36,891 bases of DNA from a virus, in IMG/VR virus record IMGVR_UViG_3300030104_005397, positions 1-36,891 of that record, one strand, 5' to 3'. The notes beneath the pieces are model-generated. The model worked only from the letters and a program-made list of their open reading frames with translations. It ran no database searches and was not told where the DNA came from. Made by a program: the position numbers and the translations under genes. The stretch's first letter is position 1; every line of letters starts with the position of its first letter. This document shows positions 1-34,134 of this stretch, one piece after another.

Positions 1-225
1 TTCTGTGTAGTGAACTGCTTGTTCTCTTACGCATTGCCAATACTTACTAGCATTCGTAGGAAATGAAGCATCATTTAGTACACTAAACCTAGCCTCAGTT
101 GGTGTTCTCCAATACTGTCGCTTTACTAAACCTTCATCTAGTTCAGGTTGTAGTTTTGCTAATTGTTTTTGCAGATCTGATTTTACTAAAGGGTGTACGT
201 TTTTTAATTTTGCTATCTCGTTCAT
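1..225 (-). CDS. Conserved phage protein, C-terminus cut off by window edge
   Basis: An open frame starts at the ATG at 225 and runs off the left edge after 75 codons without a stop. The start overlaps the stop of the upstream 84-aa gene (ATGA), which supports it. The visible part is mostly helical-looking, with the motif WRTPTEARFS followed by a segment containing KYWQCVREQ. I recall this type of sequence from marine phage genomes, near the tail-fibre genes and the small basic proteins, but know no function. It belongs to the late operon, downstream of the fibres. The missing part cannot be judged. Confidence 0.75.
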   Translation of the reverse strand, partial: MNEIAKLKNVHPLVKSDLQKQLAKLQPELDEGLVKRQYWRTPTEARFSVLNDASFPTNASKYWQCVREQAVHYTE

Positions 226-10219: not shown

Positions 10220-13200
10220 TTATCTATTTGCAACTGTTTGTTGATATGTTGTTCCCCCTACTTCTCTTTGCAACTCTCTAACTTCATCAAACCTGGAAGG
10301 ATCTGTAGGTGATATATTACCCATGTGTAGTTTAGTAATTTTTTGCTGTATTCTAAACGACATTGCTACCTCTCTTGTAAAGTTTGTATTTAGTTGAAAA
10401 AATTGCAAAGGGAAAGGAGTAGTATATTTGTTTGCTAAAATAAATTCTCTTTCTTCAGGAGTCAATCTATTCAAATATCTTGCCAAAAGATTTTCAGCTC
10501 TATCATAGTCTCCATCAAAAGTAGCTTTATCATAAATACTTTGTTGGTAATCATAATAACCTTTTGATGCTAACTTGAAGTCTCTCAAAGGATCAGTTTC
10601 AGATATTGTAAATTCATCCCTAGATGGCACACCAAATGTAGCTAAATTAATTCCTCTTTTTATAGTTTTCATTCTTGAGTGTGCATTTCTAATTTCCCTA
10701 GATTTTTCACTTCTGTTTAATTTAGGGTTGGCTAAAATTATCATCATTGTATCTTGGAAATCTGAATGAAGTGATGCAACCTGTTCTGTGTATTCATTAG
10801 GAGAAAATCTACTTGCATTGTAATAAAGAATATCTGTGTAATCTTGTTCAAACTCCCACAACTCATTATATTGCCTTCTAAATTCTGATTGAGCTACAGT
10901 ATTTTTATTAGGATATACAGACATATTCATACCCATAAAAGCAGGCAATGCAAGTCCAAGTGCTGCATTTTGACCTTCTAATCTAGCAAGTTCTGTAATT
11001 TCTTGTATAAACAAAGGTGCAAACTCTTGTATACTTTCAACATCTGTTGGAATAAACGCATCTGCAGCGTTAGTAATTTCATCTCCATAAAAATCCTGCC
11101 CTGTTGTAAGGCTAACAATACTTCTTGCACCTGGACTAAGTTTAGTTCCTAAAAAGTTTACAATAATTTCAGTAGTCTCAGTTTGATAAGGTTGCCCTGT
11201 TTGAGATAACAATTCACCATTAGGAGCTGTATTATGAACAACTCTATTGATAAGTCTTAAGACAGGTCCCATACCTGCAGTTAAATCTATATTTATATTA
11301 TCTTTTTTTAGTTTTAAGAAATTACTTTTACGTGAATCCATTTCTACATTGAAACCATTCAAAACTAAAAGGCTACCTATACCTGTAACAACTGACGCAA
11401 AACCTATCATGTCTTTTGCCATTTTTCTTGCAATAGATGTATCTGATCTTGAATTTCTTATTACTTCATTGAAAAATAAAACAGGAACTTGAAATCGTGA
11501 AGCTACCCATCTTGGTGCTAACGCTACAGCATTTAGTTCTCCTGCATATTTTTGCAACTTACCCAAGTCTCCTCTACCAGTTCCAGCATTTACAAAACGA
11601 ACATATTTTTTCATTTTGTCATTAATTATGTCTTTTGAATCTCCACTATTTTTCAAAACATTATAATAATCTTTAGTCAATCTATATCTAAGTGTATTCA
11701 AAAATGAAGTATGAAATCTTTCACCTGCTTTTATTAAATTACCTATACCAGGAACTTTCTTAATCCAGCTAGATATAAAAGCTTCTTCCCTCAAAGATAA
11801 AGGACTATCTGGATCTGCAATATACAAACCATAACCTGCACCTTCATCTACATTAGTTATAGGATTTACAGCTCTGTAGTCACTAGGTGTAGTAAACCTA
11901 GAAAAATCAGGATCTTTATATATGTTAGCCATTGCTCGATTATAATTTGTAGTGCTATAAAAAGTTTTCATTGATTTAGCTATATCATTTAGATACTTTA
12001 CAGGATTTCCACTAAACACCAAACCTTGATTAAATACTGCTCCTAAGTCTCCACCTAAAACTAACATTCTAGGAATATTTAAAATTTCCACTAAAGCAGT
12101 AACTAGTTTTTGTTTAAGGCTCATATTGGTAAATTTATCTAACTGTCTTTGTCTTTTTACTGCAGCTATAGCAGCATCATCTAACCCAAAAACTCTAGCC
12201 AAAGCATTAGCTTCTGTTCTAGTAAGCGCTTCTCCTGCAATATCTAAAGTTTCTTCAAGTTTATTTTTTGTAGTTATATCATTGATTTTTATACCTGTTA
12301 TTTTTTGCAATGCTGAAACAATATTTAAATAATCAAAAGATCTTATATTACCTGTTTTTGTTATAGTGAATCTATTAACATACGCAAGTAAACCCTTAAA
12401 CTCTTCGTAAGACATATCTAAAGGTTGAAATCCTAATTTTGCAAACTGACCACGTGCGCCACTAAAAGCATTTTGAGTCTGTTCTATAGGATCTTCTGAA
12501 GATTTAAGACCTTTACCAATTTTTTTAGCCTTAGCTTTTCTAAACTCAGTCAAATCTTTTTCATTTCTTTTTATAAGTACAGCTGCTTGATCAATTAATG
12601 CTGGTAATCTTTTTACAACTTCAGAACCTATAACAAAAAAACCTTCAGGAGTTATTTCTCCATTATTAAATAATTTACTATCTCCAGACTCCCTAACTTG
12701 TTTAACTGTTCTAGGAACAACACCTTGCAATATTGCAGGAATTTCTTTATTGGCGCTATGATAAGTTAAAGTTTCATTAATGTAAGCATCTTCACCATCA
12801 AAACCTTTAAAAATACCTGTAAATCTTCTTATAAGGTTTATAATTGTTTGTCCTAATGGCGTAACAGTTTGTTCTATATTTTTATCATCTATAAGTTTCT
12901 TACTTGTATTTTTTCCTTTAGCACCCTTCTTAAGGTTTCTTAATATTTTTCTTCCATCTTCAGTTTCAAAAGATTTTCTAGTATTACTACTTCTTGAAAA
13001 AGATAACTCATTTTTTCTATTAGGATTTTCAGTTCGCCTTACAAAATTTTTATTAATATTAGCATCATCACCAACTAATATTATTTGTCTATGTATTCCA
13101 TTTGTATTTTGCTGTCCAGCTAGCCATGTTATGGCATCTACACCTGAATCTTGATAAAGTTTATTCAAGCCATCTAACTTTTTATTTCCTTTAGAAAATT

Positions 13201-16200
13201 TTACTCTGTTATTTTTGTAACTTTGTACTATATCTTCTATGAAATAACTATTTTTCTTTAGCAATAAAGATTGACTTATAAATTGTTCATTAGTATTTGC
13301 TGTCCTTGCAACAATAGGATCTACAACTAAATTAAGATCTAAAGACCTATCAATACGTTCACTAAATACTTTTGCAATAAACCATTCTGCTGCTTTAGCA
13401 ACTTCAAGAGCAGCAATATTTTCTTCCCTAAATTTTTTACTAATTTTTGCTGGGAGAGTAAATGATTTTTTCGTAGCATCTTTCTCTCTAATAAACCTAA
13501 CCCCTAGAAAACCTTCAACAAAGTATTTTGTAAATCCTGTTAGATAGGTATGATGTAATCTAAAATCGTTATCCTGAAACAAAACATTGCCATATGCTGT
13601 TCTTACATAATTATCAGTAAAATGATTATCATAATAAGTTAGTTCATCTTTATTCAAAAAACTTTTAAATATTCTTCTACCAGAAAATTTATTTTGAAAT
13701 AATTCATCAATTATTATTAAATCTTTTATTATTTTATTATCTTTAGGATCAAAAAATCTCATAGGAACTGCAGTAGAATCACTAAGTAATTCTATAACTG
13801 TTCTTACAGTAGCATGAGTGCTTATGTTTTTTGCTAAAAGATTAACATCTAAATTATTATCTATTGCATAAATTTCTTTTTGTTTTAATATCAATTCTTT
13901 ATAATTTGAATAACCATATTCTCTAGCAATCAAATCAACATTATTGTTATAATCTTGTATAATTTTATTTGTTGGCGCACCTATATATTCATCAAAGTTT
14001 AATTCTTTATCAGCATACCTATTTGCAAGTTGAGTATTATAAAATTTATCCATCAAAGACTCTGCTGCTAAATCTCTATAATTAGGATCAAGATTGTCAT
14101 AAACTCCAAAATTATCTGCACGCAACACCCTAGACTCTGGTATTGCAATATTAAATGCTTCAATAGACTGGTTAAATTCATTTAAGCCTGAAGCCTTAGT
14201 AAAAGGTTTAGTAGCAAACATATCGCCAGAAAGGTGCATACCAGGTGACAAATAACTGTCAAATATTGGTGTATTAGAATGAATAAAAGAATCGCTTACA
14301 GGAAATCCAGTATGAAAAACTAATGCAGGTGTACCATCTTCATACTTAAATGCACTACCCCTAACAGCAACTTGTTCAGCAGGAGTAAGGTCATTTAATA
14401 TTTTTCCATTATCTCTATTTTCAATTATCATATCTAAACTTTTTCTAGCTTCGATACTTTGTGTTTGCAAAGTATTGTAAATAATTATTGGAGAATCATT
14501 ATCTATTTGAGCAGCTTGTCTAACTATTTCATCTGTACCTGATGTATTTTCCAATTGCAAGAGACGATTTATAACACTTTTATTATTTGGGTTTTCTAAA
14601 ATTTGTTCAGCAAAAGGTTTAGAAATACTAGACAATAATTTAGTTTCCATATTAGATATTTTTGCACTTTCAATTTCTATTGTTTTTTGTACATCTATAT
14701 TTTCAAAATTTCTCATACCTGCAAAATTATCTGCATTGATAGCATCTTTATTAAAGTAATTCAAAGCATACTCAAACAAATCATTTGCTTTTGTTCTTAA
14801 CACTTGTGTTGGTAAATCAGCATTTAAGTCAGCATTGATAAGTGTAGAAATAATTGTTGCAGGTTGCTGTGTAATAATTTCCCTAGAAGATCCAAATAAT
14901 TGAGGCATTATATTTCCTTCAACTATATTATCCAAAACTATTTTAAAATCATCATACGCAGATTCTAAAACTTCATCTGTAACACCTGACAAATCTACTG
15001 CAATATTTTCTTTTCTAAAAACTTTATCAAATAAAGCTTTTAGTGTTTTTGCTAATTGAATAAATATATTATCGTATTTACTTATAAAGTTTGGATCAGT
15101 TACTTTTTGTAATCCCCAATAAGAAAACAAATCTGCAAATGCTTCATGAACATCAGTAACAAAGTTTACATTTGGTTTAGAAGCATACTTGAATGTGTAT
15201 ATATTGTCCCAGTTTCTAAAATTAATCAAATCTAATTTATCTAAATCACCTTTATTAGTTATTGGATCTTCTAACAATTTTCTTTTTTGAATTATTTGAT
15301 TTTTTATTGCTATAGATAAATCATCAAACTCTTGTTGAGGCAATGCTCTAAATACATCTGGGAGTGTTGCATGAGCAAATTCATGTATCAAGGTTGCAAG
15401 GTCATCTACTTCATCTATACCTTTTTGAAACAATTGTATTGTAGATGTAAACCTTGGCATTGGATCTGCATATCTTAATATATTTCCATCAATTACCTGA
15501 GATAAACTTCCTACTGGATGTGTAACCGTTCTTCCCATCCCATAAGGTGAATTTAAATCTACATTCTTTGGATCAACTTGGTCAGAAATACCTCTAATTG
15601 CAAACTTGATATATTCTTGTTCACCTAAACCTAAAGAACTTGCTAAAAATTTTAGTAGAGGACTAAAAACTTCTTTGGTTGTTTGCCTGGAAGCCTGACT
15701 AATATTCAAAACCTCACCCACACCATCTATGTAGTCATCAATATTTTCAACTTTTTTGGTAATTTCTTTACCACGAATTTTAGCATTAATTGTATTTTCT
15801 GATGGATTAAACCTAGCAAGAGATGGTTCAGTCTGACCTATTCTATTTATTCCTCTTTGTTCTTTGAAATCTCTTATAGATTCTAACGAACGCCTTACAT
15901 TATCTGCTCTTTGCAAATTGAAATCACTAGGAGATCTTCTCAAAATACCTTCTTGCAAAATCAATCTAGGTTCATCAATTACTGTAAATAAATCTCCTGG
16001 TAATCCTAAGTCAGATGGGGGAATATTTATATCTCCATAAGTAATTGCTCCAGACTCTCCAGCTTGCTGTAATTCTTGAGACGTTCTTCTAACTGGATTA
16101 GCTAAAGGCTGATCAGATAATGCTCCTAACGTAAAATCAAAAGCAGCAGCATTTTGTTGTTCAGGAGTTACTGCATTTCTAGCAAAAGATATTTCTTCTA

Positions 16201-16921
16201 ACGATAGTTGGTTAGAACCAGGAACATCTTTAGGATTATTATCTACCTGTTCTAATTGCTCTGCGTTTCTAAGAACCTTGTTACCATATGACCTGTTATA
16301 TTTATTTATACCTTTGAATACTACACCACCACCTAACAAACCACCAACTAAAGCTGCTCCTACTTGAAATGGTACTGGTAATCCTGCTTCAACTGCAGCA
16401 TTAGCAACTCCTTTTGCAACTGGAACTGCACCAAGTCCTATGGCTGCTTCACCTGCAAACCTTTTACTAAATCCAGATACTCCAGTTGCATTAGTCTTTA
16501 CAACTGGTTCTATAATAGCTGCTGCTGGTCTAGTAAGTAATTTAGCTTTATTACTTGCTCTTAGCGCAGCTGAAACTCTGTTACCAACACCTGCTGTTCC
16601 AGCCAATAAAGCTATTTCAAAAGGAGAAGTTAGTTCAGTTATTTCATTTATAACACCTTCAAATGTTACTTCATCTGGAACTAAAGGATCTATTATTTCT
16701 GCTGCTCTTTTAAAAGTTGGAACTTCTTTTAATCTTTCTAAACCTTGATCAATCAAACCTAGTCCAGGAACTAAGTTTTGTCTATATGCTCCTCTCAAAG
16801 GAGTAGGCAATGCTTCACCTATTCTTTGTGCTGTACCTCTAGGAATTATAGGTTCAAATAAATTAGAAACAAAACTAGTAAAATCTGGAACTCTAGGACT
16901 AGGAAACTGCTGTTGTACCAT
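10220..16921 (-). CDS. Giant polyvalent virion protein with zinc-metalloprotease motif
   Basis: The protein has 2,233 residues, about 18% of the window. The N-terminus is Pro-rich, with a Gly/Ala hydrophobic segment near 185-205 that could touch a membrane. HEFAH at 513-517, preceded by DDLATLI, is a gluzincin-type zinc-protease motif (MPTase of polyvalent proteins). Residues near 867-905 (LVFHTGF, later SPGMHLSGDMFAT) resemble the NAD-binding start of ART-type ADP-ribosyltransferase domains, a weaker match. About 1735-1960 resembles the C-terminal module of large phage polyvalent proteins (LNTLRYRLTKDYYN, GTGRGDLG, a DSRKSNFLKLKK strand). Such proteins are thought to be packaged and ejected with the DNA. 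It lies between portal-side genes and the scaffold, as an internal virion protein would. RBS GGAG precedes the ATG. Confidence 0.8.
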   Translation of the reverse strand: MVQQQFPSPRVPDFTSFVSNLFEPIIPRGTAQRIGEALPTPLRGAYRQNLVPGLGLIDQGLERLKEVPTFKRAAEIIDPLVPDEVTFEGVINEITELTSPFEIALLAGTAGVGNRVSAALRASNKAKLLTRPAAAIIEPVVKTNATGVSGFSKRFAGEAAIGLGAVPVAKGVANAAVEAGLPVPFQVGAALVGGLLGGGVVFKGINKYNRSYGNKVLRNAEQLEQVDNNPKDVPGSNQLSLEEISFARNAVTPEQQNAAAFDFTLGALSDQPLANPVRRTSQELQQAGESGAITYGDINIPPSDLGLPGDLFTVIDEPRLILQEGILRRSPSDFNLQRADNVRRSLESIRDFKEQRGINRIGQTEPSLARFNPSENTINAKIRGKEITKKVENIDDYIDGVGEVLNISQASRQTTKEVFSPLLKFLASSLGLGEQEYIKFAIRGISDQVDPKNVDLNSPYGMGRTVTHPVGSLSQVIDGNILRYADPMPRFTSTIQLFQKGIDEVDDLATLIHEFAHATLPDVFRALPQQEFDDLSIAIKNQIIQKRKLLEDPITNKGDLDKLDLINFRNWDNIYTFKYASKPNVNFVTDVHEAFADLFSYWGLQKVTDPNFISKYDNIFIQLAKTLKALFDKVFRKENIAVDLSGVTDEVLESAYDDFKIVLDNIVEGNIMPQLFGSSREIITQQPATIISTLINADLNADLPTQVLRTKANDLFEYALNYFNKDAINADNFAGMRNFENIDVQKTIEIESAKISNMETKLLSSISKPFAEQILENPNNKSVINRLLQLENTSGTDEIVRQAAQIDNDSPIIIYNTLQTQSIEARKSLDMIIENRDNGKILNDLTPAEQVAVRGSAFKYEDGTPALVFHTGFPVSDSFIHSNTPIFDSYLSPGMHLSGDMFATKPFTKASGLNEFNQSIEAFNIAIPESRVLRADNFGVYDNLDPNYRDLAAESLMDKFYNTQLANRYADKELNFDEYIGAPTNKIIQDYNNNVDLIAREYGYSNYKELILKQKEIYAIDNNLDVNLLAKNISTHATVRTVIELLSDSTAVPMRFFDPKDNKIIKDLIIIDELFQNKFSGRRIFKSFLNKDELTYYDNHFTDNYVRTAYGNVLFQDNDFRLHHTYLTGFTKYFVEGFLGVRFIREKDATKKSFTLPAKISKKFREENIAALEVAKAAEWFIAKVFSERIDRSLDLNLVVDPIVARTANTNEQFISQSLLLKKNSYFIEDIVQSYKNNRVKFSKGNKKLDGLNKLYQDSGVDAITWLAGQQNTNGIHRQIILVGDDANINKNFVRRTENPNRKNELSFSRSSNTRKSFETEDGRKILRNLKKGAKGKNTSKKLIDDKNIEQTVTPLGQTIINLIRRFTGIFKGFDGEDAYINETLTYHSANKEIPAILQGVVPRTVKQVRESGDSKLFNNGEITPEGFFVIGSEVVKRLPALIDQAAVLIKRNEKDLTEFRKAKAKKIGKGLKSSEDPIEQTQNAFSGARGQFAKLGFQPLDMSYEEFKGLLAYVNRFTITKTGNIRSFDYLNIVSALQKITGIKINDITTKNKLEETLDIAGEALTRTEANALARVFGLDDAAIAAVKRQRQLDKFTNMSLKQKLVTALVEILNIPRMLVLGGDLGAVFNQGLVFSGNPVKYLNDIAKSMKTFYSTTNYNRAMANIYKDPDFSRFTTPSDYRAVNPITNVDEGAGYGLYIADPDSPLSLREEAFISSWIKKVPGIGNLIKAGERFHTSFLNTLRYRLTKDYYNVLKNSGDSKDIINDKMKKYVRFVNAGTGRGDLGKLQKYAGELNAVALAPRWVASRFQVPVLFFNEVIRNSRSDTSIARKMAKDMIGFASVVTGIGSLLVLNGFNVEMDSRKSNFLKLKKDNINIDLTAGMGPVLRLINRVVHNTAPNGELLSQTGQPYQTETTEIIVNFLGTKLSPGARSIVSLTTGQDFYGDEITNAADAFIPTDVESIQEFAPLFIQEITELARLEGQNAALGLALPAFMGMNMSVYPNKNTVAQSEFRRQYNELWEFEQDYTDILYYNASRFSPNEYTEQVASLHSDFQDTMMIILANPKLNRSEKSREIRNAHSRMKTIKRGINLATFGVPSRDEFTISETDPLRDFKLASKGYYDYQQSIYDKATFDGDYDRAENLLARYLNRLTPEEREFILANKYTTPFPLQFFQLNTNFTREVAMSFRIQQKITKLHMGNISPTDPSRFDEVRELQREVGGTTYQQTVANR

Positions 16922-20711: not shown

Positions 20712-22088
20712 TTACCACCTGTTTACTGTTATTAATTTTGTTGCACCTGCAGCTCTTGCATATCCAAAGTTTACCACAAGTCCATATGTTATTGCTTTAA
20801 TTCCATGATTGAAAGCATCTCTTGGTTCTCTACCAACAACATTTCCTTCTCTGTCAGTTCTCCATGTATAAACATGAATCTGATCGTCAAATGGATTACT
20901 ACATCCACCCAATTCTGATATAACACCTTTACATTTTGGACTGATAATCAAGTTAGGTTGCTTAGTTACTGGGTTTTCTTTTAGAAAAGTATTAAACCTT
21001 TCTACCCCATCTAGTATACCAACTCTTTCAGACTGCATATAAAGTCCAGCTTTCTCCAACCAAGTATCAACTGGTCTTGATTCACCAAAATTATGAGCTG
21101 CAATATCAATTACTCCATGTTCCACGTCTTTCCACCATGGTCTCATTGTACAGATCTCTATAATTTCTTCTGTAATCTTCTCCCTTTCAAACACTTCATC
21201 AATTATTCTAACCTGTTCACCTATGATTTGTACAGCCATCACAGCATATGCTGACTTTGTTACCTGAGAATAACCTGGATCAATCCATAAATGTACAGGT
21301 TCATCCATAATATACTCTGCTTTATCTGAAACGTGTTTTGTTGAGTCAAACATATTATGTACAAGACCTTTTGGAGGTGCTGGTTTTCCAGCAACACGTT
21401 CATTAAACCAATCTTCAGAATGCAATCTTTGTAACGACAATATTTCTTCATCTTCTTTACCACCTGGATATACTTCTTGGTTAGTCCACGAAGGTAATGA
21501 GAAAGATATTGCGTCATCTTCTTTGTTATAGAACTGCCAAGACTCCCATTGTGATGGATACCACCCTAACGACATTTCAAACGTCCCTTCAAGAAACAAA
21601 TATCCACGTTTTTCTGCAATACGACCACGTAATCTTAAAAAACTCTCTTGATCTATCTGTGATGCCTCACACGCAACTATCATTCTAGGTGCCTCCATAG
21701 CCAAACTTCTGTAGTCTTGCGCAGACTTGGTTTTTATCTGGAAAGTACCTGGATCTGTTGCTGTTCCACACACCACAGTCATTTCACCTGGATCTATTCT
21801 TTTAGTTTGTTTTACCAAAAAACCTAGTTTCGACAATATATCAGTCAAATAGTTCCACTCTGCTCTGGTTCGCTCGTAATCTCTGGCTACTAACCAGACA
21901 ATATCACCATTCTGGAACTCATCTAGTGTGTTGATAATGGATAATGCACCAAGAAAGCTTTTTCCTGCTCGTTCTCCACCAGCCACTAACTTGATTCTGG
22001 CTTTGTAATCAAGGATCTGGTCTTGTTCCTTCCAAGTCCTAAAGCCAACAGCTTCTAATAACGCTTTTCTATCTTCTTTTAAAAACAT
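20712..22088 (-). CDS. terL: Terminase large subunit
   Basis: The protein has 458 residues and packages DNA into the procapsid. Residues 37-44 read GGERAGKS, a Walker A P-loop. Residues 136-141 (MIVACE) occupy the Walker B position, with Glu141 as catalytic base but Cys in place of the usual Asp. The C-terminal RNase H-like nuclease has the three acidic positions expected, D270 (LWIDPG), D328 (GVIDIA) and D424 (RDAFNHG). The ATG follows a strong RBS (TAGGAGG) and a structured leader. It is the first gene of the leftward operon, directly before portal. No small terminase subunit is recognisable. Confidence 0.93.
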   Translation of the reverse strand: MFLKEDRKALLEAVGFRTWKEQDQILDYKARIKLVAGGERAGKSFLGALSIINTLDEFQNGDIVWLVARDYERTRAEWNYLTDILSKLGFLVKQTKRIDPGEMTVVCGTATDPGTFQIKTKSAQDYRSLAMEAPRMIVACEASQIDQESFLRLRGRIAEKRGYLFLEGTFEMSLGWYPSQWESWQFYNKEDDAISFSLPSWTNQEVYPGGKEDEEILSLQRLHSEDWFNERVAGKPAPPKGLVHNMFDSTKHVSDKAEYIMDEPVHLWIDPGYSQVTKSAYAVMAVQIIGEQVRIIDEVFEREKITEEIIEICTMRPWWKDVEHGVIDIAAHNFGESRPVDTWLEKAGLYMQSERVGILDGVERFNTFLKENPVTKQPNLIISPKCKGVISELGGCSNPFDDQIHVYTWRTDREGNVVGREPRDAFNHGIKAITYGLVVNFGYARAAGATKLITVNRW

Positions 22089-22092
22089 TGTA

Positions 22093-22155
22093 CCTCCTAT
22101 ATTAGCATAAACCCCAAAATGTAGGAGGCGAAGCTTACACCAGGGGCTTATGCTA
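22093..22155 (-). promoter_or_regulatory. terL leader hairpin with competing anti-RBS pairing
   Basis: In the minus-strand RNA, UAGCAUAAGCCCC (from 22,155) pairs with GGGGUUUAUGCUA (to 22,103), giving 13 bp with one G-U pair. The loop contains CCTCCTA (RNA from 22,128 to 22,122), a perfect complement of the terL ribosome-binding site TAGGAGG (22,099-22,093). The two pairings can compete or form a pseudoknot, which would gate terL translation. The G-U pair exists only in minus-strand RNA, which supports that strand. Regulation is inferred. Confidence 0.6.
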
Positions 22156-22166
22156 TTAGCTAAAAA

Positions 22167-22190
22167 TGTTAGTTACGTACCATACTAACA
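22167..22190. repeat. TGTTAGT...ACTAACA inverted repeat
   Basis: A 7-bp perfect inverted repeat with a 10-nt spacer that includes TACGTA, in the terL leader. The arms are the same sequences as in the C-run/G-run hairpins, but in inverted order. Confidence 0.6.
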
Positions 22191-22342
22191 GATGTAACCC
22201 TAAAGAGGTCCATTCGGAAGAAAGTACCCCTGATACGACATCCAGCTAATACCATTATTCTACAGTCTACTAACAACTGTTGGCAACCCAAAAGAGAAAA
22301 GAGAGGGGGGAACCTTTAAGGAGGGGGGTGAGATATGAGTTA

Positions 22343-22372
22343 ACTAACAACCCCTTTAAAAGGGTTGTTAGT
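22343..22372. repeat. ACTAACAACCC / GGGTTGTTAGT hairpin
   Basis: An 11-bp perfect stem with loop CTTTAAAA, in the leader region between the probable late promoter and terL. It is closely related to the hairpins at 7,228-7,260 and 33,760-33,795. There is no U-tract on either strand. Confidence 0.85.
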
Positions 22373-22405
22373 AACAACAAGGGGTAAAAATATACAGGAT
22401 CAAAA

Positions 22406-22433
22406 AATATACAAGGGACTCCTATGGCAACAA
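22406..22433 (-). promoter_or_regulatory. Candidate leftward late promoter
   Basis: On the minus strand TTGTTG (22,433-22,428) is followed after 16 bases by TATATT (22,411-22,406), close to a sigma-70-type promoter. It would start a transcript about 310 bases upstream of terL, running through the two hairpins of the leader. The spacing is acceptable and the match moderate. No equally good rightward promoter was seen. Confidence 0.35.
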
Positions 22434-22760
22434 CAAGCTGTCAAGATGGTACCTACTACCACATACATACACATTACAACAGCATACCCCCACCTATCAC
22501 CATTACCACCACCACCATCCGTTCTATAAGATTGGTCTATTTGCTTAGGGACGAGATGTTTGGGGGAGTTTGAGATTCCCAAATTAGCGAACGTCTGCCC
22601 CTCTTACGCACATACTTCACGCACGAAGAGAGGTGGAATTCTGAGGAACTCTCACGTACATTTCAGCGCCCAGGCGTACGCATCTGCGCACGTATTTGAA
22701 CGCTGATTTTTTCCCAGTCTCCTCACCCTTTGGGTGTTTTGTCGTTTGAGATTGAGATTT

Positions 22761-22794
22761 TTCCCCTCGTCTAACGGTAGTTAGACTAGGGGAA
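22761..22794. other. Long hairpin upstream of the early operon
   Basis: TTCCCCT (22,761-22,767) pairs with AGGGGAA (22,788-22,794), and inside it GTCTAAC pairs with GTTAGAC around the loop GGTA. The only interruption is a single C/T mismatch. That makes 14 bp, followed by TTTAACC. The inner part is a CTAAC-N4-GTTAG palindrome. The 3' arm (CTAGGGGAATT) is repeated in the hammerhead ribozyme at 23,491. Confidence 0.75.
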
Positions 22795-22889
22795 TTTAAC
22801 CTGCTACCATTGAAATATCAGTCGATTTCGGCTGAGTGAACCAAGTCAAAGGGGTTCGATGGAACACCTATGGCACATGAGAAAGAGAG

Positions 22890-23375
22890 TTAGACTATGT
22901 CTAAGAACGCAACCAAAGTGTCCCCAAAGGGGACAAAATCAGCCAACAAAACCCAATTGCTAAAGCAATTGGAGGGCGAGACACTAGGGACGAAGTCCCT
23001 ACAAGCACTCCAGTATGGAGTGAAGTGGAGCCAGTCAAAGACTGGGACGCAACCTCAAGGGTACCTTGAGAAGAAAACCATCCTCAAAGAACTACGTTCT
23101 TTGGGCAAGAAAATCGGCTTCAAGGCTCAAGCCCTAAAGGGCTTGTCCAAGAGGGAACTACGTTCCCTAATTTCTCCAAACGTAGTTTGGAGTGAGGTGC
23201 AAGAGTCCAAGAAATCTTCACCGAAGGTGAAGGTCACAGGTGGCAAGGTCGACCTCGCACTCGTACCTGCAGACGACACACCTGCGAAGTCCCCGAAGGG
23301 GACGAAAGCCAAGAAAACCAAGCCGACCATTGACGAAGTCAATGCGAAGTTGGAAAAACTCATCAACGTAGTTGA
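22890..23375. repeat. Array of about fifteen tight mini-hairpins
   Basis: Stem-loop-stem units (loop in brackets): 22,890 (TAT), 22,919 (AAA), 22,953 (TAAA), 22,985 (GAA), 23,006 (GTA), 23,031 (AAA), 23,054 (GTA), 23,083 (TAC), 23,128 (TAAA), 23,152 (TAC), 23,174 (GTA), 23,216 (GAA), 23,289 (GAA), 23,328 (GAA), 23,363 (GTA). Stems are 5-8 bp and perfect, or 10 bp with one wobble at 23,083. Units are spaced about 20-45 bases apart and are not in a fixed codon phase. They are not direct repeats of one another, so this is neither CRISPR nor a simple tandem repeat. Confidence 0.9.
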
Positions 23376-23400
23376 GAAGTTGGCTTTGGCTCAAGCGTAG
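22897..23400 (+). CDS. Lys-rich early protein encoded by a hairpin-packed gene
   Basis: The protein has 167 residues, is very basic (about one fifth Lys) and has no family I recognise. The middle (LEKKTILKELRSLGKKIGFK) could be a small helical DNA-binding domain. Two SPKGTK motifs occur near residues 9-14 and 133-138. The C-terminus (DEVNAKLEKLINVVEKLALA) looks like a short coiled coil. It is the first rightward gene, so probably expressed early. Its DNA is extraordinary: about fifteen mini-hairpins with 5-10 bp stems and 3-4 nt loops cover about half the gene, one overlapping the start codon (TTAGAC-TAT-GTCTAA, 22,890-22,904). Coding is supported by length and synonymous differences between the two SPKGT repeats, but the locus may also act as RNA or DNA structure. 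Confidence 0.7.
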   Translation: MSKNATKVSPKGTKSANKTQLLKQLEGETLGTKSLQALQYGVKWSQSKTGTQPQGYLEKKTILKELRSLGKKIGFKAQALKGLSKRELRSLISPNVVWSEVQESKKSSPKVKVTGGKVDLALVPADDTPAKSPKGTKAKKTKPTIDEVNAKLEKLINVVEKLALAQA

Positions 23401-23410
23401 TTCACACACA

Positions 23411-23441
23411 GGCGTAGGCTCGGCATAGGTCGAGCCACGCC
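23411..23441 (+). other. Hairpin after the early gene
   Basis: GGCGT and GGCTCG pair with CGAGCC and ACGCC, giving 11 bp with one bulged A around the loop GCATAGGT. It starts 11 bases after the stop of the hairpin-rich gene and ends 20 bases before the hammerhead. It is not followed by a U-tract, so it is more likely a stabilising or ribozyme-accessory structure than a terminator. Confidence 0.7.
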
Positions 23442-23460
23442 AAAAAGCCAACCGAGAACA

Positions 23461-23524
23461 GGCGAAACTCGTACACGTATACGTACGAGTCTAGGGGAAT
23501 TGGACGCTCCCCTACTGATGAGCC
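23461..23524 (+). ncRNA. Type II hammerhead ribozyme
   Basis: All core positions of a hammerhead are present in the circularly permuted (stem II open) order. GGC (23,461-23,463, stem II) is followed by GAAA. Stem III is ACTCGTAC / GTACGAGT (23,467-23,490). C23,491 is the cleavage base, giving GTC. Stem I is TAGGGGA / TCCCCTA (23,492-23,514) with loop ATTGGACGC. CTGATGA (23,515-23,521) then leads into GCC (23,522-23,524), which closes stem II. The A15.1-U16.1 and G10.1-C11.1 pairs are both present. Cleavage would occur after 23,491, separating the hairpin-rich mRNA from the downstream genes. Stem II is only 3 bp, so activity may depend on loop contacts. Confidence 0.87.
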
Positions 23525-30448: not shown

Positions 30449-30859
30449 ATGGTAGACCAACAAGAATTACGTGAGAAATGTATCATGTATTCTCAAATCA
30501 AAAAGCGAAAAGCAGATGTTGATAGAGCATACAGAGAACTTGGTGAGGAAATTATCAGGGACTTAGATAACATGGAAGCACTAAAGGCAGACTTCATTGG
30601 TGAGCATGGGGAGATTATGAACGTAGTAATCAAGAACAATTATGATTACGACATCATGACACTACGCAAACTACATGAGGTAGAGTCACAATTAGTTTCT
30701 CCAAAAGACTTGAACAAGTTGATATACGAGAGTACAGAGGAGAAAGTAAACAAGAGATTAGCAACAGAGTTAATCAAGAGGGGTGGTGTCGTTGCCGACA
30801 TAATCAAAGAGGCACGAGCAATCAAAAGTAGAAAATACATAACAATAAGAGAGGCATAA
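30449..30859 (+). CDS. Coiled-coil accessory protein (136 aa)
   Basis: A 136-residue highly charged helical protein with a strong RBS (AAAGGAGG). The N-terminal half is heptad-like (CIMYSQIKKRKADVDRAYRE). The C-terminal half is basic (KRLATELIKRGGVVADIIKE). Genes of this type upstream of replication genes may be nuclease-inhibitor-like or helicase partners. No family recognised. Confidence 0.6.
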   Translation: MVDQQELREKCIMYSQIKKRKADVDRAYRELGEEIIRDLDNMEALKADFIGEHGEIMNVVIKNNYDYDIMTLRKLHEVESQLVSPKDLNKLIYESTEEKVNKRLATELIKRGGVVADIIKEARAIKSRKYITIREA

Positions 30860-31738: not shown

Positions 31739-33751
31739 ATGACAAAACTATTGGACGCTGCGTTGGATTACGCACAACAAGGTATGAGTGTTATCCCATT
31801 AGTTCCTAAAGATAAAAAGCCTTTGCTTTATTCGTGGAAAGAATTTCAGAATAAACGTATGGGTATTGGGGACATGAGGGGATTTTGGAAAGACTCTCCT
31901 GAATCAAACATAGGTATTGTAACTGGTGCTATATCAGGGATTACTGTGATTGATGTTGATGGAGAGGAGGGACTTGCGTCTTTGAAAGGCGCAGGTATCA
32001 AACTTCCTGACACTCATATAGTAAAGACGCCAAAAGGTTGGCACTTTTACTACAAGTATAATAACTTGTTCAAGACTGGTGCAGGGTTTCTGAAGAACGT
32101 AGATGTCAGAAATGACGCAGGATATGTGGTTGCTCCACCATCCAAAGCATCAGATAAAGACTACGCAGTTCTTGAGGATAATGGTGGTGTGTTTTCTGAG
32201 TTTGGGGTAGTGCCTGAACAGTTCTTAGGTAGACAACCAAAGGCAGTTGAACCTAACGACAGAGAGAGTGTTGAGCCATGGGTTACAGAGGCACTAGAAA
32301 ATGGTGCGCCTGAAGGACAAAGAGATGTTACTGCTACTAGAGTGGCAGGATACTTTTGGGCGAGAGGTATACAAGAGGACATCTTGCAAAGCATACTAGT
32401 TGGATTTGGGGAGAAATGTACTCCACCAATGAACGAGAATGACATTGCAAGGATAGTCAAGTCTGTAACTAGGTATCAACAAACTAAGATTAGAAACTTC
32501 ACAGAGGGCAAGATACCTGATCCTATGTGTAAAGTTGAGGACAATGAATCAGTTGTAGTCAACTGGGCAGAGAATGGAGTCATGATTACATTTTCTCCTA
32601 CAGGTGGTAGGAATATGTGTGACCTGACTGTTGAAACCTTTCAGAGTGGTGTACTTCTCGGTCCTGTGAACTTCGACTTGGTATCATTGAGCAGACGTAG
32701 AGATGCAGTATCTGTCTTGAGAAACAGACAGAAAGGTGATGACTGGGACGCAATACTAGACGTAGCTTGTAGAGTTGCGAAAAATGCTAGAGAGGATGAC
32801 GCAGACTTCATTGATACATCTGTCACCAAGATACAAGTAAACCCTAACAGGTGGCTGATTGATGGGTTACTGCCATTGAAAAAGCCAACTATCTTGTTCG
32901 CTACTGGTGGTACAGGCAAGTCATTCTTTGGGACTGCTATATCTATGGCAGTATCAAGTATGATAGAAGTGATTGAGGGGTTTGAACCTTTGGACACAGG
33001 TCAAGTGTTATACCTTGACTGGGAGACAGACGAGGAGGAGTTTACTTGGAGAAAACAAGCACTCATCAATTGTTTGAACAATAGAGGGGTGTCAGGAGGC
33101 GACCTAGAGGAATCGGACTTCCCTGTCTCTTACAGGCGCTGTACAGACAGTCTCGTGGCATTACAGCCACGTTTAAGGAAGTGGTTAGATAGCAATTCAT
33201 GTCCTTTGATTGTTATTGACTCGCTTATTCCTGCACTAGACGCAGACGCAAACGACTCTGAAACTGCTAGGCGATTCATGAATATTGTCAGGTCTTTTGA
33301 CACGACAGTATTGGTGTTGAGTCACACAAGTAAAGAGGGCAAACTATTCGGTTCTACTTTTTGGTGGAACTTGGCTCGTAATGTTTGGTCTGTTAGCAAG
33401 GAGCAGGACATGGGTGAGAGTTACACCGACATTGCTTTCACCCATGAAAAGTCTAACAACTCTAGGTTGTATCCACCAATTGGGTTACGTTTCTCCCACG
33501 AGAACAACATAGCCTCATTTGAGAGGATTGAAACATCACAGTTGAGTAACAACATTGCTAAGTCTATACCAATCAAGGTTAGAATTAGAGAGTTGCTAAA
33601 GACAGGTAGGTTGATGTCCTCTAAGGAGATAGCAGAGGAGTTAGACGCAACAGTAGAGGCAGTAGGGATGGCTCTAAACAGAGGGAAGTCAACATCATTC
33701 TCCGAGATACATGATCCTGTAGGCAACAGGAAGTGGAGAATAATTAACTAA
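31739..33751 (+). CDS. Primase-polymerase / helicase fusion
   Basis: The protein has 670 residues. The N-terminus is a bifunctional Prim-Pol domain: ALDYAQQGMSVIPLVPKDKKPL at 8-29, catalytic DxD in IDVDG (D72, D74), KGWHFYYKY with H102, VDVRNDAGYVVAPPS at 121-135. The middle has a primase C-terminal helical linker. Residues 370-600 hold a RecA-like AAA_25 helicase with Walker A GGTGKS (390-395) and Walker B LIVIDS (D494), then LVLSHTSKEG and a Trp-rich segment near GSTFWW. The last 60 residues look like a winged helix (LMSSKEIAEELDATVEAVG). It likely primes and unwinds phage DNA. No separate DNA polymerase is present. Confidence 0.9.
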   Translation: MTKLLDAALDYAQQGMSVIPLVPKDKKPLLYSWKEFQNKRMGIGDMRGFWKDSPESNIGIVTGAISGITVIDVDGEEGLASLKGAGIKLPDTHIVKTPKGWHFYYKYNNLFKTGAGFLKNVDVRNDAGYVVAPPSKASDKDYAVLEDNGGVFSEFGVVPEQFLGRQPKAVEPNDRESVEPWVTEALENGAPEGQRDVTATRVAGYFWARGIQEDILQSILVGFGEKCTPPMNENDIARIVKSVTRYQQTKIRNFTEGKIPDPMCKVEDNESVVVNWAENGVMITFSPTGGRNMCDLTVETFQSGVLLGPVNFDLVSLSRRRDAVSVLRNRQKGDDWDAILDVACRVAKNAREDDADFIDTSVTKIQVNPNRWLIDGLLPLKKPTILFATGGTGKSFFGTAISMAVSSMIEVIEGFEPLDTGQVLYLDWETDEEEFTWRKQALINCLNNRGVSGGDLEESDFPVSYRRCTDSLVALQPRLRKWLDSNSCPLIVIDSLIPALDADANDSETARRFMNIVRSFDTTVLVLSHTSKEGKLFGSTFWWNLARNVWSVSKEQDMGESYTDIAFTHEKSNNSRLYPPIGLRFSHENNIASFERIETSQLSNNIAKSIPIKVRIRELLKTGRLMSSKEIAEELDATVEAVGMALNRGKSTSFSEIHDPVGNRKWRIIN

Positions 33752-33813: not shown

Positions 33814-34134
33814 ATGACTGCAAGAGGTACTTGGAAAGCATCTGAAAGACGAATTGCTGAGAAACTAGGGGGTAAAAGAGTCCCAGTTACTGGCAGAGAA
33901 AGAGGTTCTGCACCTGATGTAGAACACAAACTATACGCAATAGAACACAAATATGGTAAAGTTTTATCATCCAGGTTGCAGACTGCAATTGAACAAGCAT
34001 ACGCAGCTGCTGAAGGAACAGATAAAGTACCAATCGTTACGTTTGAACACGCAAGAAAAGGTAACATAGGTAATATAACAGGTGTACTGTTGTTAGTAGA
34101 TGATTTTATTAAAATATCGGAACAAAAGGTTTAA
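33814..34134 (+). CDS. PD-(D/E)XK nuclease, Holliday-junction-resolvase-like
   Basis: The protein has 106 residues. The pattern E11 (WKASERRIAEKLGG), then APDVEHKLYAIEHKYGK with D35, E44 and K46, fits the catalytic E...PD...ExK arrangement of small RecB-like/VRR-NUC or Hjc-like nucleases. A later FEHARKGNIGNITGVLLLV strand follows. Its position directly after the Prim-Pol helicase suits a recombination or packaging junction resolvase. RBS AAAGGAG precedes the ATG, right after the hairpin. Substrate is inferred. Confidence 0.7.
   Translation: MTARGTWKASERRIAEKLGGKRVPVTGRERGSAPDVEHKLYAIEHKYGKVLSSRLQTAIEQAYAAAEGTDKVPIVTFEHARKGNIGNITGVLLLVDDFIKISEQKV

Follow-up and report, generated by a model that had tools for sequence, protein, structure and literature searches.

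Why should half of a short viral gene be written in sequence that folds back on itself, and is it the gene that keeps these folds? The window, that is, the whole stretch of DNA analysed, is a 36,891-base IMG/VR virus record, and a sequence-only reading of it had described its 504-base ORF at 22,897-23,400 as half made of about fifteen mini-hairpins. When perfect, non-overlapping hairpins with a stem of at least 5 bp and a loop of 3-6 nt were counted, the ORF held 14, with a 15th spanning the start codon (Table 1), which agrees with that description. The 14 cover 47% of the ORF with a stem total of 97 bp, and in 13 the stem is 6-8 bp long. Their loops are GAA and GTA (four each) and AAA, TAAA and TAC (two each), with TAT at the start codon. 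The two SPKGTK copies at 22,919 and 23,289 are as the earlier description has them, and they form the single near-identical pair; all other stems in the ORF differ. Hairpins also occur outside the ORF, in the 5' non-coding region (22,724 and 22,769) and slightly downstream.

The frequency of these hairpins is far above what codon choice gives by chance, as had been claimed. Synonymous-codon shuffles of the ORF contained 1.86 +- 1.24 hairpins (maximum 6 in 1,000 shuffles) against the 14 observed, and codon-order shuffles had a mean of 1.43 and a maximum of 5. The folding-energy check proposed with that claim gave the same answer. Compared with 150 codon-preserving shuffles, the minimum free energy (MFE) of the ORF had z = -7.4 on the plus strand and -7.0 on the minus strand when folded as RNA, and -7.7 and -7.9 when folded as DNA, an excess that is equal on both strands. 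No other 500-nt segment of the window approaches the hairpin density of the ORF stretch. As background we used about 1.0 Mb of DNA, the yield of an unrelated leader motif scan (GGGGACTATAGGGG) that consists mostly of random matches; with a stem of at least 6 bp and a loop of 3-5 nt, its maximum outside the phage group was 8 hairpins per 500 nt, against 12-17 in most array-bearing members of the group.

Table 1. Positions of the hairpins and of the neighbouring features in the window.
Feature	Position	Strand	Remarks
Terminase large subunit	20712..22088	-	Reference for array position and tree
Divergent control region, terminase vs rightward operon	22089..22896		GC-skew sign change nearby; candidate origin or promoter region, as inferred
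Long inverted repeat ACTAACAACCCCTTTAAAAGGGTTGTTAGT	22343..22372		Same or similar, at the same place, in L015, L037, L039, L040, L048, L057, L059, L063
G-poor, C-rich unstructured tract	22450..22529	+	2 G in 80 nt
Non-coding hairpin CACCC-ttt-GGGTG	22724..22736		Other stems at the same place in L002, L003
Non-coding hairpin GTCTAAC-ggta-GTTAGAC	22769..22786		Inside a longer CCCCT...AGGGG fold; other stems in L002, L003
Start-codon hairpin TTAGAC-tat-GTCTAA	22890..22904		L003 version, both arms changed: TTTGGC-tat-GCCAAA
ORF, 167 aa	22897..23400	+	First gene of rightward operon; basic N-terminal half
Predicted helices of the ORF protein	residues 59-73, 85-95, 145-166		145-166 is the C-terminal helix
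Hairpin TGTCCCC-aaa-GGGGACA	22919..22935		SPKGT copy 1
Hairpin CCAATTGC-taaa-GCAATTGG	22953..22972		
Hairpin TAGGGAC-gaa-GTCCCTA	22985..23001		
Hairpin CACTCCA-gta-TGGAGTG	23006..23022		
Hairpin CCAGTC-aaa-GACTGG	23031..23045		
Hairpin CTCAAGG-gta-CCTTGAG	23054..23070		
Hairpin CAAAGAAC-tac-GTTCTTTG	23085..23103		
Hairpin CAAGCCC-taaa-GGGCTTG	23128..23145		
Hairpin AGGGAAC-tac-GTTCCCT	23152..23168		
Hairpin CTCCAAAC-gta-GTTTGGAG	23174..23192		
Hairpin CTTCACC-gaa-GGTGAAG	23216..23232		
Hairpin GTCCCC-gaa-GGGGAC	23289..23303		SPKGT copy 2
Hairpin CATTGAC-gaa-GTCAATG	23328..23344		
Hairpin TCAAC-gta-GTTGA	23363..23375		
Inverted repeats directly 3' of the ORF	23417..23490		GGCTCGGCATAGGTCGAGCC at 23417; ACTCGTACACGTATACGTACGAGT at 23467
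Small nuclease, Holliday junction resolvase-like (phrog_2002)	33814..34134	+	End of rightward operon; PDVE...EHK

Relatives of the window were IMG/VR records found with terminase and portal searches; a host search with the terminase against genome_contigs was unsuccessful. In the array-bearing relatives the hairpins occupy a zone that lies about 0.4-1.85 kb away from the start of the terminase gene (for the window, about 0.6-1.3 kb), one site per genome, with arms of 6-10 bp, centres mostly 20-35 nt apart and totals of about 15-38 hairpins within the 3.5 kb examined. The zone keeps its genome position whether it falls in non-coding DNA or in unrelated ORFs. The array of L253 extends across unrelated small ORFs and spacers, at distances of about 650 to 1,850 nt from the start of the terminase gene, while its homologue of the family protein lies farther downstream with four hairpins only. 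That of L264 sits in an unrelated lysine-rich ORF, whose homologue in L266 has five hairpins only, and the family-protein homologues of L137, L251 and L267 have few or none. Outside ORFs altogether are 129 of the 280 unique hairpins, and in L039, L048, L057 and L059 the non-coding leader also holds a tandem hairpin array with a spacing of about 22 nt. The array is thus a feature of the site, independent of the protein, and the picture of a gene built from hairpins has to be given up. Homologues that keep the protein and lose the stems, which the sequence-only reading had named as evidence against itself, do exist; they arise because it is the site, rather than the protein, to which the array belongs.

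Mapped onto the terminase tree, the array requires at least five forced changes of state on supported branches (L063, L236 and L239, whose upstream sequence is cut short, were scored as weak), and it is absent from close relatives whose replication or structural proteins are 85-87% identical. Being gained and lost so frequently, it is not essential to the phage group. L236 and L239, which are different contigs, both end exactly 1,200 nt upstream of the terminase, within the array, perhaps through an assembly break due to the hairpins.

Close relatives also reveal how the stems change. The terminase proteins of L002 and L003 are each 99% identical to that of the window, and the terminase-proximal leaders are 95% (L002 and window) and 96% (L002 and L003) identical. 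Their hairpin ORFs have a protein identity of only about 50%, with the hairpin zones rebuilt from other stems. The earlier suggestion that homologues be aligned and their stems examined for covariation is borne out, as paired changes keep the stems. Between L002 and L003, 91 base pairs are unchanged, 16 have become a different Watson-Crick pair through changes on both sides, and 7 no longer pair; the corresponding counts are 68, 4 and 0 for L236 and L239, and 162, 6 and 8 for L240 and L248. Double changes are richer in transitions than spacer changes in one clade (19:6 vs 287:319, P = 0.007), a difference that is not significant over all pairs (P = 0.09). The loops of homologous hairpins were the same in 117 cases, another loop in 45 and the reverse complement in 0, summed over pairs that are not independent. 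Stems evolve more slowly than spacers in a comparison that is biased by the choice of hairpins perfect in one sequence, and we do not use it as evidence. Synonymous divergence (dS) between relatives is 0.24-1.2 in the hairpin gene vs 0.10-0.54 in the terminase gene, about 1.5-7 times higher (1.23 vs 0.17 between the window and L002), and the locus is therefore unusually fast-changing or swapped by recombination. Within any one array-bearing genome almost all stems differ, and among 255 unique hairpins only the loop type and the closing pair recur. That about 1 kb is packed with ever-changing hairpins whatever gene resides there suggests that DNA folding, and not a protein, is kept.

Does the array act as DNA or as RNA? 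Selection on the fold of a transcript would be expected to favour G.U pairs. One-mismatch hairpins had 10 G.T and 8 A.C mismatches, and pairs changed between relatives had 16 and 22, so that the pooled counts are 26 and 30, a G.T share of 0.46 (95% CI 0.33-0.60). After maximal pairing, loops of 2, 3 and 4 nt were found in 69, 95 and 54 cases vs about 1 expected for each, and loops longer than 5 nt fall back near chance frequency. Tetraloops with complementary ends, which amount to two-base loops, occurred 67 times vs 29.7 expected (P = 7e-13). The pointer in the sequence-only reading to stable DNA triloops of the GAA type was a good one: GNA triloops, which are unusually stable in DNA, number 29 vs 8.1 expected on the plus strand and 18 vs 6.8 on the minus strand. 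C-G closes the loop in 58% of cases, while its share elsewhere in the stems is 25%. Because G.T is not favoured, loops are almost all of 2-4 nt, the GNA and C-G biases are those named and folding is strand-symmetric, the data favour an array that acts as DNA rather than RNA. GAA and TAAA loops are in excess on the plus strand; this excess of A-rich loops follows, at least in part, the A-rich coding strand, and it could also mean that one strand matters. The free energy of the loops set against that of random loops was an uninformative comparison.

What the data show directly is that the hairpins exist, that pairing survives the change of stems, that the array does not depend on the protein, that it is confined to this site and that it lacks a G.U signature. 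The reading that we favour, tentatively, is a position-bound array of DNA mini-hairpins that fold when the DNA is single-stranded or supercoiled and are recognised by shape. The array, perfect fold-backs with 6-10 bp stems and 2-4 nt loops for which any foldable sequence would suffice, takes up a zone in the divergent control region and in the gene that opens the rightward operon. The stretch would become single-stranded or supercoiled as replication or recombination begins; the hairpins or cruciforms that then form would be read through shape rather than sequence. The reader may be the phage Prim-Pol/helicase system, with a Prim-Pol/AAA protein encoded in the rightward operon and the Prim-Pol at 31,739-33,751, or it may be the PD-(D/E)XK-like junction resolvase; more generally a junction resolvase, a primase or a helicase loader may be envisaged. 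The first gene would have been moulded around the array, with its protein presumably still translated and under purifying selection. The fuller proposal, in which a sequence-free signal beside an origin or early control region is read by a structure-specific enzyme, is imposed on the resident gene and is incompatible with RusA-type resolvases, seems to us somewhat unlikely as a whole. Some hairpins decay, and this counts against the array model: one-mismatch hairpins of all types number 42 vs about 9 expected, beside 108 perfect hairpins of at least 8 bp.

A pattern at the level of DNA, symmetric between the strands and bound to one position, would equally follow from mutation alone. Polymerase template switching at the site, triggered for instance by Prim-Pol initiation, R-loops or strand displacement, would turn chance quasi-palindromes into perfect hairpins and keep correcting them, and the array would be a functionless by-product, a mutational scar spreading through the zone with no reader. 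This is possible, if doubtful, and it has published precedent in the perfect coding palindromes of Nematomorpha mitochondrial DNA (PMC6649704) and in the report that template switching creates and maintains hairpins (PMC8794818). It explains the strict pairing, the strand symmetry, the tight 2-4 nt loops, the frequent gain and loss and the raised dS of the gene. It would require, however, a process that is limited to about 1.2 kb and absent from the close relatives named above, and the transition-rich double changes of the one clade are those that stepwise compensation predicts, with the reservation that they are not significant over all pairs. Loop inversion, a signature of one kind of template switch (PMC8604942), is seen in none of the homologous hairpins, and the loops are strongly non-random in their GNA sequences and closing C-G pairs. 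We rank the DNA shape signal somewhat above the template-switch by-product.

Highly folded mRNA or structural RNA, among the roles first suggested for the hairpins, is disfavoured by the lack of a preference for G.T over A.C and by features that are largely strand-symmetric. Single-stranded DNA hairpins with a part in replication, another of those roles, stay a candidate. A function in RNA, by which a structured 5' part of the early transcript would resist RNase or Rho, tune translation or act as a protein sponge, is unlikely. The array does lie at the start of the rightward operon, downstream of a C-rich, G-poor tract that resembles a Rho-loading site, its RNA folds far above shuffles, and the start-codon hairpin covaries. 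Yet decayed and diverged stems show no excess of G.T, the antisense strand folds no less well than the sense strand, two-base loops are favoured, and there is no fixed RNA architecture, since stem sequences and hairpin positions drift. Rfam 15 at the gathering threshold gives no match in the window.

The surroundings of the array bear on where a signal would act. The leftward operon starts at the terminase gene and the rightward operon at 22,897. In the leftward arm GC skew lies between about -0.14 and -0.21, in the rightward arm between +0.20 and +0.29; over 22.1-23.4 kb it moves from about -0.17, through zero in the array, up to about +0.24. GC skew also tracks the direction of transcription. 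GTTAC is repeated in iteron-like fashion in the terminase-proximal leaders of L004, L010, L013, L025, L047 and L059 (7-14 copies vs 1.9 expected) and is barely enriched in the window (3 vs 1.4). On the skew flip and the GTTAC repeats of relatives, a replication origin at or near the array is plausible. A packaging signal is possible because the terminase gene is adjacent; contig end points in these metagenomic assemblies give no support for virion ends at the array, as the window runs through it and five relatives end elsewhere. The array zone begins just beyond the G-poor tract. Array-bearing relatives have such a tract at the matching position, and array-less ones have a C-rich tract there; the G-poor tract may have a rut-like, origin-unwinding or packaging role. 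Tracts of at least 80 nt with 0-2 G and 33-49 C were seen at this place in the window, L015, L039, L040, L048, L057, L059 and L240. A motif close to GGGGGGACTATAGGGGGG, followed by the long inverted repeat with its spacer of about 8 nt, is present in the terminase leaders of the eight relatives named for that repeat in Table 1; the window keeps the repeat and lacks the motif. An ORF (MPENPLVKDFTDARTRARVKGL...) upstream of the terminase gene is conserved in the array-less L022, L023, L024 and L047 and may be spurious.

Some array-less relatives have repeats that resemble binding sites at or near the place of the array, namely short operator-like palindromes with constant half-sites in L013 and L047 (TTGTGAAnnnnTTCACAA) and in L010 (AGAACnnnnGTTCT), and iteron-like GTTACA repeats in L025. 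The array palindromes themselves might by analogy be operators or iterons bound by a dimeric regulator or packaging protein, which the constant half-sites would favour. We consider this very unlikely, as the stems are nearly all different in each genome, the unique hairpins share their loop type and closing pair only, and a dimer that reads sequence could not recognise such stems.

Hardly credible at all, finally, and largely refuted, is the notion that a repetitive lysine-rich protein merely happens to have codons that fold: the ORF is conserved under purifying selection and similar peptides do recur (SPKGT, KELRSL, RELRSL), but synonymous shuffles destroy the hairpins, nearly half of the unique hairpins are non-coding, and L253 and L264 carry theirs in other ORFs while homologues elsewhere have none. 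The proteins of the hairpin ORFs form one diverged family (A1) and, with dN/dS of 0.29-0.60 between relatives, are probably real and under purifying selection. The ORF protein had no match in Pfam and only a weak one in PHROG (head scaffolding, E 0.065). Its AlphaFold model is partly confident (mean pLDDT 64, with residues ~61-100 at 79-89) and gave no convincing Foldseek match; our impression is of a helix-extended-helix segment that may be SAP/Rho_N-like. Used alone as a query, the protein found no relatives in viral_contigs or phages, and single diverged family members found only contigs already known.

How does the array compare with known systems? The promoters of the N4 virion RNA polymerase are short hairpins, with stems of about 5-7 bp and loops of 3 nt, that are extruded from phage DNA near early genes. 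They are few and conserved in sequence, whereas the array has about 15-38 hairpins per 3.5 kb, no conserved stem and a location inside genes; the stems of its 255 unique hairpins are unrelated, unlike the conserved hairpin sequence that recurs at each N4-type promoter. No N4-type virion RNA polymerase was recognised in the window, where remote forms could escape notice, for instance in a 2,233-aa late protein for which neither Pfam nor PHROG gave a match at the thresholds used. That protein (10220-16921) has a HEFAH metallopeptidase-like motif and is possibly a polyvalent ejected protein. At single-strand initiation sites and hairpin origins, such as G4-type priming sites and mitochondrial OriL, a fold of single-stranded DNA near the origin directs priming; these have one or few hairpins of defined sequence, whereas the phage array is long and free in sequence, and its role is a candidate one. 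GNA mini-hairpins are known as isolated stable motifs or as parts of aptamers. The d(GCGNAGC) mini-hairpins, cited as extraordinarily stable (PMC4686876), share the closing C-G pair and the GAA and GTA triloops with the array; that source does not describe dense arrays in genes.

Among systems with palindromes inside genes, the Rickettsia RPE are palindromic insertions in genes, each a copy from a mobile repeat family, that decay over time (PMC6649704). As in the array, palindromic DNA is tolerated inside ORFs, but the array stems are unrelated to one another and kept paired. Copies of a mobile palindromic repeat (REP/BIME or RPE) should share sequence, and in the ORF only the SPKGTK pair is near-identical; this candidate was rejected. 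Nematomorpha mitochondrial genes carry many perfect inverted repeats in translated genes, for which template switching has been proposed (PMC6649704), and which, like the array, are kept perfect, are gained and lost and have no known function. Their arms can be as long as 142 bp and their positions are spread over many mitochondrial genes (PMC6649704), whereas the phage array has short arms and loops, fairly regular spacing and a single site, and reaches into non-coding DNA. Palindromes of that type, under repeat conversion, should also lack surplus imperfect copies, and the count to set beside this is the 42 one-mismatch hairpins of the array group. Hairpins maintained by template switching have perfect stems with multi-base compensatory changes (PMC8794818), as the array has; template switching is a general process that explains single stems and, alone, not a site-bound saturated array. 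The literature searched describes no element of such form, as the sequence-only reading had supposed. Since each of the nearest described systems is unlike the array in its arm length, its layout, its sequence conservation or the molecule concerned, we regard the array as categorically new as an element, while the underlying process may prove to be a known one. If functional, it would be a nucleic-acid signal defined by folding alone, so dense that it dictates the amino-acid sequence of the overlapped gene, and kept while its letters change quickly, and a natural test case for cruciform and hairpin extrusion in vivo, for replication and recombination enzymes that read shape, and for overlapping codes. 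If it is a template-switching scar, it would be a very strong local viral example of that mutational process, directly measurable by experiment.

The distribution of resolvase genes touches on the shape signal that we favour. The residues PDVE...EHK of the resolvase-like protein at the end of the rightward operon may, in our reading, represent PD-(D/E)XK. This protein is 79-81% identical in the array-bearing G001, G002 and G004, although primase identity in these genomes is only 47-57%, and it is 53% identical in G010, which has a smaller array; the L253 contig ends inside its copy, of which 31 residues are present, with 55% identity. A resolvase that is about 50% identical occurs without an array in G011 and G018, and carriers from unrelated phages (L295/G027 and others) have no arrays either. 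RusA (PF05866) occurs in the array-less G008, G009, G021 and G025 and in none of the seven array-bearing records. In G025, whose primase is 85% identical, RusA lies downstream of the primase gene. RusA cuts four-way junctions, and its exclusion fits the view that cutters of such junctions are ill-suited to DNA that extrudes cruciforms. With few related genomes and lineages, the association of resolvase type with the array is a lead and not proof. RusA is encoded at 15242-15595 of the G025 record, and resolvase type swaps between close relatives. A 136-aa protein family (30449-30859 in the window) is present in the window, G001-G004, G010 and G013 and, weakly, in G020 and G018, and its gene adjoins that of a 290-aa protein with relatives in most of the records.
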